Shown piece by piece: positions 1 to 22,063 of a stretch of DNA of 33,262 bases. The notes beneath the pieces are model-generated. The model was given only the letters and a program-made list of their open reading frames with translations. It was not told the DNA's origin and made no database searches. Within the stretch, counting starts at the first letter, position 1, and each line of letters begins with the position of its first letter. Origin of the DNA: an uncultured Pelagibacteraceae bacterium (GTDB taxonomy: Bacteria; Pseudomonadota; Alphaproteobacteria; Pelagibacterales; Pelagibacteraceae); the NCBI GenBank assembly GCA_902596785.1, contig CACJVG010000008.1:1-33262 (forward strand), written 5' to 3'. Position numbers and translations under genes: made by a program.

Positions 1-170
1 TTAATTATAGATGAAAGTAAATGAGGACTAGGTTTGTATTCAAAACTATTTTCAAAAGTTTTTGATATTTTTTTTTCGTAAAAATTTGAATTTTGATAAA
101 TTGATTTAAAGCTATCTTTTATATTAAAATAAAATTGACCTAAAATGCCTAAGGAATTTTTGTTAATCAT
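1..170 (-). CDS. Partial CDS: N-terminus of a probable heparinase II/III-like protein
   Basis: An open frame starts at the ATG at 170 and runs off the left edge of the window (56 codons visible). It begins MINKNSLGILGQFYFNI and contains YKPSPHLLSSI near the edge. It starts 4 bases after the rpe stop codon, so the two genes are probably co-transcribed. From memory, the gene after rpe in SAR11 genomes is a heparinase II/III-like protein followed by purH, and the visible N-terminus is compatible with that. No catalytic region is visible, so the identity rests on context. That it is coding is fairly sure; the name is not. Confidence 0.55.
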   Translation of the reverse strand, partial: MINKNSLGILGQFYFNIKDSFKSIYQNSNFYEKKISKTFENSFEYKPSPHLLSSII

Positions 171-17520: not shown

Positions 17521-19011
17521 ATGAAGTTATTTTTTATACTTGGTAATCAATTATTTCCAACAAAATACCTAGACCGCTTCAAAAAAGACCACCTATTTTT
17601 TATGGCTGAAGATAAGGGTTTATGCACTTATGAAAAGCATCATAAACAAAAAATTTTATTATTTCTATCTTCTATGCGTTCTTATGCAGACCGATTAAGA
17701 AAAAACAAATTTAAATTAGATTACTTTAAAATCGAAGATAAAGAATTTAATGAAGATTATTTAAAAAAATTAAAAAAAATAATTACACAAAAAAAGGTAA
17801 AAGAAATTTCAAGTTTTGAAGTAGAAGATAAATTTTTTGAAAAAAAAATTTCACAATTTTTAAAAAAAGAAAACATACACTGGAATGTTATTCAAACTCC
17901 TATGTTCTTAAATTCAAGAGCTGAATTTAAAAATTATTTATCAAAATCAAAAAAACCTTTTATGGCAACTTTCTACAAAGATGTTAGAAAAAAATCTGGA
18001 ATATTGATCGGGTCAGATGGTGATCCAATCGGGGGAAAATGGAGCTTTGATGAAGATAATAGAAATAAACTACCTAAAAATATTTCAATTCCTAAATTTC
18101 CAAAAATAAATGAAACCAGTCATACAAAAAAATTAAAGCCTATTATTGAAAAGGAATTTAAAAATCACCCAGGGAGTACAAATAATTTTTGGTTTGCAAC
18201 AGAATATGAAGATGTAGTTAAACTATTGAATTTTTTTATAAAAGAAAAATCTAATCTTTTTGGTGATTATGAGGATGCAGTTGATCAAAAAGATAATATC
18301 CTGTTCCATAGTGCATTAAGTCCTTACATAAATTTAGGTTTAATAACCCCTGAATTTGTTGTCCAAAAAGTTTTAGACTTTCACAAGAAAAATAAAATTA
18401 GAATGAATTCTTTAGAGGGTTACATTCGTCAAGTGATTGGTTGGCGAGAATTTATGCGAGGAATTTATCAGTCATACTCTCAAGAAATGGAAACTGGAAA
18501 TTTTTTCAAACAAAATAGAAAAATGAAAAATTCTTGGTACGATGGAACCACTGGTCTTCCACCTTTAGATTATGCAATTAAAAATGCCGTTAATCATGGT
18601 TGGTCACATCATATTGAAAGATTAATGATCTTATCAAATATTATGAACCTTTGTGAAATCAAGCCAACAATTGTTTACAAATGGTTCATGGAAATGTTTG
18701 TGGATTCCTCAGATTGGGTAATGGTTCCTAATGTTTATGGAATGGGATTGTTTAGTGATGGAGGAATTTTTGCAACAAAACCTTATATTTGTGGATCAGC
18801 ATATTTTATGAAAATGATGGATTTTAAAAAAGGAGAGTGGTGTAACACAATGGATGGCCTTTATTGGAGGTTCATAGACCGAAACAGAAAATTTTTTTTA
18901 AAAAATCCTCGTCTATCTATGATGGTAAGGATATTTGATAAAATGAAATCTGAGAGAAAAAAATTAATTTTATCAGAAGCTGATAAATTTATAAAACTAA
19001 ATACAATTTGA
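17521..19011 (+). CDS. Cryptochrome/photolyase family protein (FeS-BCP/PhrB lineage)
   Basis: A 496-residue protein of the deoxyribodipyrimidine photolyase-related group. The N-terminal alpha/beta domain starts FILGNQLFP; FWFATEYEDVVKLL leads to the helical FAD domain with LSPYINLGLITP, YIRQVIGWREFMRG, HIERLMILSNIMNL and DWVMVPNVYGMG. Relatives repair (6-4) or cyclobutane lesions with light and hold a 4Fe-4S cluster on four Cys. Here only two likely equivalents are present: C378 (NLCEI) and C441 (GEWCN). The CxxC segment is replaced by DFKKGEW, so the cluster is probably absent. The stop overlaps the next ATG (TGATG). Confidence 0.92.
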   Translation: MKLFFILGNQLFPTKYLDRFKKDHLFFMAEDKGLCTYEKHHKQKILLFLSSMRSYADRLRKNKFKLDYFKIEDKEFNEDYLKKLKKIITQKKVKEISSFEVEDKFFEKKISQFLKKENIHWNVIQTPMFLNSRAEFKNYLSKSKKPFMATFYKDVRKKSGILIGSDGDPIGGKWSFDEDNRNKLPKNISIPKFPKINETSHTKKLKPIIEKEFKNHPGSTNNFWFATEYEDVVKLLNFFIKEKSNLFGDYEDAVDQKDNILFHSALSPYINLGLITPEFVVQKVLDFHKKNKIRMNSLEGYIRQVIGWREFMRGIYQSYSQEMETGNFFKQNRKMKNSWYDGTTGLPPLDYAIKNAVNHGWSHHIERLMILSNIMNLCEIKPTIVYKWFMEMFVDSSDWVMVPNVYGMGLFSDGGIFATKPYICGSAYFMKMMDFKKGEWCNTMDGLYWRFIDRNRKFFLKNPRLSMMVRIFDKMKSERKKLILSEADKFIKLNTI

Positions 19012-19864: not shown

Positions 19865-20082
19865 ATAATAAAATTTTTGAATGGGCAGGGGTTATAACTG
19901 CAATATTGTATTCTTTGTTTGTTGCTTTAAACATAGGAATAGAATTTTTTGGTTTTTGTTTACTGTTATTGTCAGCCATTTTAATTGGAATTTGGGCCTA
20001 TAGAGGTGGTCATAAAGGAATTTTATTTTTGCAATTTTTTTATGCAACCGCTGGAATTATTGGAATGGTTCGTTGGTTTTAA
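19861..20082 (+). CDS. Small membrane protein, unknown function
   Basis: A 73-residue protein that is almost entirely hydrophobic, with about three membrane segments (about 8-24, 28-46 and 52-71) and a short polar loop YRGGHKG. I do not recognise the family with confidence. It overlaps the amidotransferase stop by 4 nt (ATGA) and converges on the FAD-domain protein; the TTAA at 20079-20082 supplies the stop codon on both strands. Confidence 0.7.
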   Translation: MNNKIFEWAGVITAILYSLFVALNIGIEFFGFCLLLLSAILIGIWAYRGGHKGILFLQFFYATAGIIGMVRWF

Positions 20083-21218
20083 TTAAAGCTTGAAACTATT
20101 TTAGGGATATAATTTTTAAAATTAAAAAAACCTTTATTACAGTATTGCCAAGCTAATTGATCAAGATTTCTATATAAAAAATCTATCTTTAAATTATTAG
20201 AATTTAAAAAATCTAAATTTTCACCTACTGTTGGATACAAACCGTGATAATTTTCAATATTTGTTAATTCACTTATATCTATAATTTGACAATCAATAGA
20301 TTGATTTTTTAATCTCTGTACTTGGTCTTCTATTAAATGAGATTTAAATTTCACTAACTTTTCACTTAGTTTTATTGCTCTATTTTCATTTTTATTAGAG
20401 ACTAAGTAAATTTTTTTAAAATTGTTTTCCTTAAAGTCAGTGATTTCAAACGAGAGATTATTTTCAAAAATTAAAAGATTCTTATTCTCAATCTTTTGTG
20501 GGTTATTAAAATCCTGTTTAATTATTTGATAAGATTTTTCAGATATTTTTGGAGGAGCATTTTCATTTAATTTTATATTTTGAAATCTATTGTTAGTGAA
20601 TTTTTTAATATTCCATTCACTTGCAAGGTAATGTTTTCCTTGAGTTTGAACACCCGCAACCCATCGCCACCCAAGAGTATTTGATGCAGCATCTCCATCA
20701 TAAAGGTGTTGCATAAAAAATTCTGCACCTAATTGCCAAGGCAATTCTAAAGTAAAAATCCAAATACTAGCAAACCACATTCTTGTGTGATTATGCAAAT
20801 AATTGTTTTCTTTAAGCTCTTTCACCCACTCATTAAAGCAATTTACTTTTGTTTTTCCTTCGATTGCTGCAATATAATTTTTATTATCTTTTAATTCGTT
20901 TTTGATTTGATTTAATTCGATAAGATAATCAGTCCAAACATTTGGTCTAAGTTCTAACCAACCTTTCCAATAAGTTCGCCATAGAACTTCTTGAATAAAC
21001 TTTTCATTTTTTGAAAAAGAAAATTTACTTAGAGCTTTCTGAATGACTTCTTGTTCATTAATTATTCCATGAGTTATATATGGTGATAAGCAAGATATAT
21101 TAGATCTTTTTTCAGGTCCAAAATCAAAATTTCTTAATTTTGAATATTCTCCAAGATTATTCTCAACAAAATTATTTAATTGATTTAAGGCCTTAGCCCT
21201 TGAAGCTTCAAATATCAT
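20079..21218 (-). CDS. Photolyase-like FAD-binding protein with domains in reversed order
   Basis: A 379-residue protein. Residues 1-215 form a photolyase/cryptochrome FAD domain: SCLSPYITHGII (42-53), VLWRTYWKGW (78-87), LHNHTRMWFASIWIF (141-155) and YDGDAASNTLGWRW (173-186), the FAD-pocket motif. The usual N-terminal antenna domain is absent. A C-terminal region (about 245-379) looks alpha/beta: LLIFENNL, KIYLVSN, a long helix to about 305, CQIIDISEL, LYPTVGE, then FLYRNLDQLAWQY and GFFNFKNYIP. It may correspond to the antenna domain moved to the other end. Similar proteins exist in databases as FAD-binding domain proteins; light-dependent repair or sensing is inferred. Confidence 0.85.
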   Translation of the reverse strand: MIFEASRAKALNQLNNFVENNLGEYSKLRNFDFGPEKRSNISCLSPYITHGIINEQEVIQKALSKFSFSKNEKFIQEVLWRTYWKGWLELRPNVWTDYLIELNQIKNELKDNKNYIAAIEGKTKVNCFNEWVKELKENNYLHNHTRMWFASIWIFTLELPWQLGAEFFMQHLYDGDAASNTLGWRWVAGVQTQGKHYLASEWNIKKFTNNRFQNIKLNENAPPKISEKSYQIIKQDFNNPQKIENKNLLIFENNLSFEITDFKENNFKKIYLVSNKNENRAIKLSEKLVKFKSHLIEDQVQRLKNQSIDCQIIDISELTNIENYHGLYPTVGENLDFLNSNNLKIDFLYRNLDQLAWQYCNKGFFNFKNYIPKIVSSFN

Positions 21219-21224
21219 TTTAAA

Positions 21225-21605
21225 TTATTTTGATTTTTTTTTCTTAAGACCTAATTTGTCACTATGTCTTAATCTTAAAACAACAATGGCTCCAGCTATT
21301 AACAAAATAGCTACTGCTTCATAAACAAGTGCAGTAGGATCCATTTCTTTGCCTTGTAGAATAATAAATCGTGCAAGGGCGGTAATCGCAATAAGAAGTG
21401 GTAGTGTAATACTAATAGATTGTTGGTTCCAAAAAACCCTAACCATTGCTAGTACCTCCAAATAGAGAAACATTAAAAGCAAATCTGCTAATGTAACAGA
21501 TTGATTTAAAAACATGTTTTTCATTTCAATCCCAACAGCAATAACAGTACTGATTAAGATAATAACCATTAATGCTAACTGTAAGTTTTTTGCTATCTTA
21601 TCCAT
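21225..21605 (-). CDS. PsiE-family membrane protein
   Basis: A 126-residue protein with four hydrophobic segments and a basic tail (KKKKSK). It matches the PsiE (phosphate-starvation-inducible E) pattern: LADLLLMFLYLEVLAMVRVFW then ITLPLLIAITALARFII, with a final helix before a basic end. The molecular function of PsiE is not known. Nothing upstream that I can see identifies a Pho box. It starts on the stop of the preceding gene (TAATG) and ends 6 nt before the photolyase-like gene. Confidence 0.82.
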   Translation of the reverse strand: MDKIAKNLQLALMVIILISTVIAVGIEMKNMFLNQSVTLADLLLMFLYLEVLAMVRVFWNQQSISITLPLLIAITALARFIILQGKEMDPTALVYEAVAILLIAGAIVVLRLRHSDKLGLKKKKSK

Positions 21606-22063
21606 TATTTATCTTTACTAAAAGGTAACCATTTTTCAATTGCAGATTTTAAGGGACCATCATAAGGGATTGAATAAGAATTCGGGTTTGGACTTGTTAA
21701 AACTTCAATTCCTTTTGAAAATACAAAAATAAATACTATTACAAAAACTATGACCATGATTTTAAAAGGATCAAAATTTTTTGTTTGAAAAACACTTGCA
21801 GACTTCTCTTCTGCTCTATGGAATTGTTTAAAAGTCATATAGACGGCAAATATTAAACCTATATGAGCTAAAAAAAGTCCAGCCCATCCAAATGCAAAAG
21901 TTGTGTAAGAAAAAACATATAAACTAAAAACAGTAGTCCAAATAAAACTTAAAACTAAAAGAATTTGTAATCTAACTGTTTTAGGAAGTGCGCGTAGATC
22001 ATTCTTACTATCATCAAATAAAATATTTGCAGCATCTCTCATCCAATTCTTTATTGATTCCAT
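21605..22063 (-). CDS. Hypothetical membrane protein
   Basis: A 152-residue protein with three predicted membrane helices (about 30-52, 58-77 and 98-118) and a soluble N-terminus that contains WMRDAANILFDDSKND. A longer C-terminal stretch after the last helix ends PFSKDK. I do not recognise the family. It shares a base with the PsiE-like start (TAATG), so the two are probably translated together and may form a complex. Upstream lies a 57-nt gap after argG. Confidence 0.75.
   Translation of the reverse strand: MESIKNWMRDAANILFDDSKNDLRALPKTVRLQILLVLSFIWTTVFSLYVFSYTTFAFGWAGLFLAHIGLIFAVYMTFKQFHRAEEKSASVFQTKNFDPFKIMVIVFVIVFIFVFSKGIEVLTSPNPNSYSIPYDGPLKSAIEKWLPFSKDK

Follow-up and report, generated by a model that had tools for sequence, protein, structure and literature searches.

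The photolyase gene described here lies on the minus strand at 20079-21218 of the window, the whole stretch of 33,262 nucleotides that was analysed, in a SAR11 (Pelagibacteraceae) genome whose assembly holds 967,085 bases and is 77 percent complete. It is an intact ORF of 379 residues that starts with ATG, the stop codon being included in the interval. The coordinates given by the original prediction hold and its strand needs correction to the minus strand; the plus strand of the same interval is stop-rich. Residues 1-223 (20550-21218) form the catalytic FAD domain, residues 224-244 (20487-20549) a linker to which the structural model assigns neither helix nor strand, and residues 245-379 (20082-20486) a C-terminal alpha/beta domain, hereafter the Z-domain, that ends in a conserved GFFxFK motif, all on the minus strand. 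A PsiE-like gene (21225-21605) adjoins the photolyase gene on its upstream side, and in frame the ATG is separated from the stop codon ahead of it by just two codons, Phe and Lys. As no more than two codons precede the start and the PsiE-like gene abuts it, there is no hidden N-terminal antenna domain. Beside the PsiE-like gene lies the gene of a 152-residue protein (21605-22063) of membrane-like composition, with no Pfam family over the cut-off. Convergent with the photolyase gene, on the plus strand at 17521-19011, is the gene of a separate protein, an FeS-BCP or prokaryotic 6-4 photolyase with DPRP and FAD_binding_7 domains (Pfam).

It had been proposed that the FAD domain of the protein comes first, with no antenna domain ahead of it, and the Pfam search agrees with this order. 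FAD_binding_7 was the only family found (residues 74-198, E 8.6e-18, positions 1-127 of the 203 in the model), no second family appeared at E <= 1 anywhere in the 379 residues, leaving no DNA_photolyase antenna domain, and neither the N-terminal PF00875 nor the DPRP domain (PF04244) was found in the ORF. The top NCBIfam models for the protein were photolyases, matched far below their cut-offs, and its top PDB sequence matches were CPD photolyases. In the full-length AlphaFold2 model residues 1-223 superimpose on residues 173-411 of the T. thermophilus photolyase (Z 16.2, 208 aligned residues, 2.4 A).

Active-site residues were mapped from the E. coli photolyase through a PDB sequence alignment and checked across the 19 family rows of alignment A1, which left out loci L020 and L021. 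E. coli E274, W277, N341 and M345 correspond to E77, W80, N143 and M147, and W359, N378, W382 and W384 to W161, N180, W184 and W186, each invariant in 19/19 rows. Going by what these residues do in E. coli, we take E77, W80, N143, M147 and W186 to be the CPD-contact positions, and W184 and W161, which correspond to E. coli W382 and W359, to be the Trp pair for FAD photoreduction; this dyad and N180 fall within residues 161-184 (20667-20738, minus strand). The position of E. coli W306, where the alignment is loose, holds Trp in none of the 18 rows that have a residue there and a gap in the remaining one. No column of A1 holds a Cys in all or nearly all rows, and the Fe-S cluster cysteines are thus absent. 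Read from the alignment, this residue pattern fits a CPD photolyase that would be functional and rely on a Trp dyad. The FAD pocket and the CPD-contact residues are common to the query and the class I CPD photolyases, whereas the latter have an N-terminal antenna and a Trp triad and the query has neither PF00875 nor the third Trp.

The region of about residues 245-379 had been said to alternate strands and helices, and a structural model compared with the PHR domain had been suggested as a check. The full-length AlphaFold2 model, built with 58 relatives, has a pLDDT of 90.5 and a pTM of 0.90 and shows a compact C-terminal alpha/beta domain with strands at 247-250, 270-274, 310-314, 324-327 and 346-348 and helices between them. 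Residues 222-379 modelled alone adopt a similar fold (pLDDT 84.9), in the order beta, beta, alpha, beta, alpha, beta, alpha, beta, alpha, alpha; the alignments used for modelling comprised 58 (A2) and 33 (A3) of the 80 fetched loci. The alternation is therefore borne out as five strands with helices in both models, the domain is not disordered, and its best PDB matches are, with a narrow lead, photolyase antenna domains.

When the C-terminal domain was compared with 350,542 PDB chains by Foldseek, no match reached 1e-3 or better; the first rank (E 4.1e-3) and the second (2.7e-2) both went to the Caulobacter 6-4 photolyase, and the third to the methyltransferase METTL9 (E 3.3e-2). Among the 50 VIA-align rows shown, rows 1-9 (Z from 8.3 to 7.1) were entries for five different proteins, each a prokaryotic 6-4 photolyase or CryB. 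The matched part of these photolyases runs from residue 1-3 to residue 124-164, their antenna end, as when residues 24..156 of the lone-domain model align with 2..164 of 4dja. Row 10, a universal stress protein, has Z 7.1 and ties with the ninth photolyase row; further down the list follow class II photolyases (from Z 6.8) and shikimate dehydrogenases (from 6.6). As the tool itself cautions that Z can reflect a common arrangement, our argument rests on the ranking and not on Z. The best fold match is thus the antenna domain of prokaryotic 6-4 photolyases, which leads the other Rossmann-like folds narrowly. In three Drosophila cryptochrome rows the full-length model aligns from residue 1 to 366-367 with residues 221-530 of the chain, and the conserved GFF region (residues ~364-367, window about 20118-20129) may in these superpositions sit near the C-terminal tail of the Drosophila cryptochrome.

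A profile search with the C-terminal region alone had also been suggested, and its outcome is divided. In the first valid hhalign comparison the class I antenna domains reached 0.4 percent against 0.7 for the argG control, and an earlier comparison of the Phr5-like antenna domains, described below, with the Z-domain profile gave 3.9 percent in one direction and 0.3 in the other. The later Z profile comprised 47 sequences, namely the 19 A1 rows, 13 of 17 further NewPHL loci (L141, L142, L147 and L148 being dropped) and a thinned SAR11 set. It was compared with a class I antenna set of 16 of 20 fetched loci (L111, L116, L118 and L127 failed the motif filter), with a Phr5-like profile of 7 of 8 loci (L027 was missed by the motif) and with decoys from 23 SAR11 ORF families, one of which is NewPHL itself and was not counted and another FeS-BCP. 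Ranked by summed score among 27 non-self profiles, the merged Phr5-like and class I profile, which is not independent of its two parts, came first (51.9/10.8 percent), class I antenna alone second (7.3/3.0 percent) and Phr5-like alone third (1.9/5.5 percent), and all three alignments are collinear and span most of the Z-domain. The best decoy was argG with 0.8/1.6 percent, and its scores of 18.5/20.2 are near those of Phr5-like alone (19.3/22.1). Phr5-like did not match a SAR11-only NewPHL profile (0.1/0.2 percent). The FeS-BCP antenna profile, which is SAR11-only and shallow (Neff 1.9), gave 0.2/0.2 percent with Z despite the leading place of FeS-BCP in the structural comparison. Accordingly, we regard the profile evidence for a shared ancestry of the Z-domain and antenna domains as modest and partly conflicting, so that it would support such an ancestry and is not conclusive.

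Further evidence comes from the relatives of the FAD domain. Its tree holds 49 rows, among them 19 NewPHL-like, 8 Phr4-like and six SAR11 FeS-BCPs; long branches meet between the NewPHL-like and the other rows, and the class I rows do not form one clade. The 19 NewPHL-like rows, the query and 18 homologues, form one clade (support 99/98) that is sister to the 8 FAD-only Phr4-like rows (98/100), and the FAD domains of the six SAR11 FeS-BCPs form a separate clade. The FAD-only proteins (L022-L029) come from eight genomes of the bacterial class of the window, and in 8/8 of these an antenna-like ORF lies directly downstream of the FAD-only ORF; seven were seen as ORFs and the eighth (G028) was found by their profile (E 1.2e-30). 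At L028, for example, the two ORFs occupy 1183-2112 and 2105-2536. Some FAD ORFs of this group have a Cys-rich tail, and the antenna-like ORF follows or overlaps. The Phr5-like profile clearly matches class I antenna domains by hhalign (89-91 percent), to which it is much closer than is the Z-domain (7.3/3.0 percent). These pairs are arranged much like the split Phr4 and Phr5 of marine Synechococcus, of which a fused form, Phr6, occurs in two Cyanobium strains (PMC9426592).

An antenna-like domain encoded after the FAD domain is common to the query and to split Phr4/Phr5, fused Phr6 and the short photolyase-like (SPL) proteins, and Phr4-like proteins are the sister clade of the query by FAD domain. 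The query differs from Phr4/Phr5 or SPL in being one fused ORF of 379 aa with no conserved cysteines and in forming a separate clade. In structure the C-terminal domain of the query comes closest to the antenna domain of FeS-BCP or prokaryotic 6-4 photolyases, and yet these photolyases carry the DPRP antenna first, their FAD domains fall in a separate clade and their antenna profile does not match Z.

Two origins had been offered for the C-terminal domain, an antenna domain moved behind the FAD domain or an unrelated Rossmann-like domain. The first outranks the second, as antenna domains hold the nine top VIA-align rows, the first two Foldseek ranks and the first three of 27 profile ranks, and we consider it quite probable that the Z-domain is a relocated antenna domain. 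'Circular permutation', as the architecture had been termed, is apt as a statement of domain order, the sole sense in which we use it; the margins are modest, and among the profiles that of the FeS-BCP antenna is not conspicuous. The strongest competing explanation is that the enzyme is the same NewPHL enzyme and that its C-terminal domain is an unrelated Rossmann/HUP-like domain, a replacement rather than a relocation. We hold this to be unlikely, and still the best placed of the alternatives: the direct profile comparison was at first not significant and later modest, the FeS-BCP antenna profile stayed at 0.2 percent, and the photolyase rows exceed the universal stress protein and shikimate dehydrogenase rows by no more than some 1 to 2 units of Z. 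What speaks for relocation is that photolyase antenna domains, the natural partners of a FAD domain such as this one, fill the nine best structural rows, that the antenna profiles rank first to third among the non-self profiles and run collinearly through the domain, and that in all eight genomes of the sister Phr4-like group an antenna-like ORF comes immediately after the FAD-only ORF.

NewPHL photolyases were reportedly described by Emmerich et al. in 2020, in D. shibae (UniProt A8LJA9) and M. mesophilicum (M7YZC8), and the C-terminal domain of NewPHL is said there to have a lid role over FAD. In later papers, Prochlorococcus Phr7, which we equate with NewPHL, has an N-terminal FAD domain and a C-terminal 'Z-domain' and is without Fe-S cluster cysteines (PMC9426592), NewPHL and Phr7 are given an inverted topology and repair of CPDs in single-stranded DNA (PMC13274461, PMC9426592), the D. 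shibae NewPHL has a Trp dyad (PMC8948257), and an Asn at the FAD is conserved in NewPHLs (PMC12083526). The query resembles NewPHL/Phr7, as far as these texts describe them, in its inverted order, short C-terminal Z-domain, Trp dyad, Asn facing FAD and absence of Fe-S cysteines, and differs from them in none of the features tested, being here a SAR11 member. Judged by the features that these later papers describe, it is very likely that the protein belongs to the NewPHL class. The architecture had been called unusual; it is not an unknown one, since NewPHL/Phr7 photolyases with the same order are already in print, and the reversed-domain photolyase is most likely a SAR11 example of a published architecture. 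By analogy with these enzymes it probably favours lesions in single-stranded DNA.

SAR11 bacteria are known for their abundance in the ocean. NewPHL is present in 36 of 60 sampled SAR11 family genomes at E 2.4e-98 or better (43/60 at 1e-8, where weaker photolyase matches are counted), and PF00875 and PF04244 are matched in 34/60 and 37/60. Restricting the sample to the 26 high-quality genomes (>=90 percent complete, <=5 percent contaminated) leaves NewPHL in 21 and PF00875 in 22. Two of these genomes carry NewPHL without PF00875, namely G321, a single contig that is 99 percent complete, and G313, which is 96 percent complete. Three (G301, G304 and G338) carry PF00875 without NewPHL, and two (G289 and G328) carry neither. 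G000 also has no PF00875 match, but is only 77 percent complete. As G321 and G313 are without PF00875, NewPHL may be their only CPD photolyase; both also carry a DPRP photolyase. Their gene content sits oddly with a strictly single-strand-only role for NewPHL.

Some photolyase relatives are sensors, and a cryptochrome-like light sensor that has lost DNA repair would be in keeping with a photoreduction path reduced to a Trp dyad. We consider this very unlikely for the SAR11 protein: the positions taken to contact the CPD (E77, W80, N143, M147 and W186) are kept in all 19 rows, Pfam shows no added domain, and of the 31 sampled SAR11 genomes in which both the NewPHL and the DPRP (6-4) photolyase gene occur, 14 have them convergent and no more than 10 kb apart.

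The gene is well kept among its relatives. Of 592 relatives the best 80 loci were retained, and in 79 of these the ORF aligns over >85 percent of the protein, the exception probably being L108, where the length of the match is not divisible by three. The closest named locus among the best 80 belongs to a Pelagibacteraceae assembly (99 percent protein identity), seven plasmid-borne homologues share 33.2-34.6 percent identity over 98-99 percent of the protein, and no relative was confirmed in the viral contigs scanned. In the class sample 156/289 genomes match at 1e-10; the best 29 matches, one per genome, are 21 NewPHL-like (L001-L021) and the 8 FAD-only proteins. The weaker matches, which for the most part sit in frames 430-550 codons long, we regard as class I photolyases; of 20 that were fetched, 16 carry the antenna motif. 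In the phylum sample 21/349 genomes match A1 at 1e-30, and the 18 that span the whole profile are all in the class of the window. The median dN/dS of the C-terminal region is 0.153 (55 of 58 pairs usable) and that of the FAD part 0.095, indicating that the C-terminal region is not a decayed tail and that both parts are under purifying selection. The partial Pfam match to FAD_binding_7 could point to a class I photolyase that is truncated or decaying, but this reading can be dismissed almost entirely: the ORF is full length in nearly all kept loci, dN/dS of each part is far under 1, the clade is separate from class I, and some SAR11 genomes carry a PF00875 photolyase as well.

Based on these data we propose that the gene encodes a NewPHL-class CPD photolyase with a diverged, relocated antenna domain that covers FAD, a statement that we consider likely when taken as a whole. 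From what is known of the family, reduced FAD would absorb light and pass an electron to a cyclobutane pyrimidine dimer, which would then split; the dimer would be held by E77, W80, N143, M147 and W186, and the W184-W161 pair would serve to photoreduce FAD. Most likely the C-terminal domain is a strongly diverged antenna-type domain that moved behind the FAD domain, where it may mainly cover the FAD site, with light harvesting secondary.

A wider scenario, which we offer as a speculation and do not at present favour, is that the reversed order is ancestral to the branch of NewPHL and Phr4/5/6, FAD and antenna domains having once been separate neighbouring genes, as they would still be in the Phr4/Phr5-like pairs, that were fused as FAD-antenna here and as antenna-FAD elsewhere, and that NewPHL, as the sole CPD photolyase in some SAR11, may also act on double-stranded DNA. 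This last part is drawn from the SAR11 genomes in which NewPHL would have no other CPD photolyase beside it.

Genes of the NewPHL type are common among SAR11 bacteria, being present in 36 of the 60 sampled genomes, and often stand beside a 6-4 photolyase gene; for the SAR11 NewPHLs we do not claim the first report. The split Phr4/Phr5-like pairs offer linking sequences with which to ask whether two fusions in opposite order gave rise to the photolyase family, and the SAR11 genomes without a PF00875 match are a natural setting in which the claim of repair in single-stranded DNA only may be tested.
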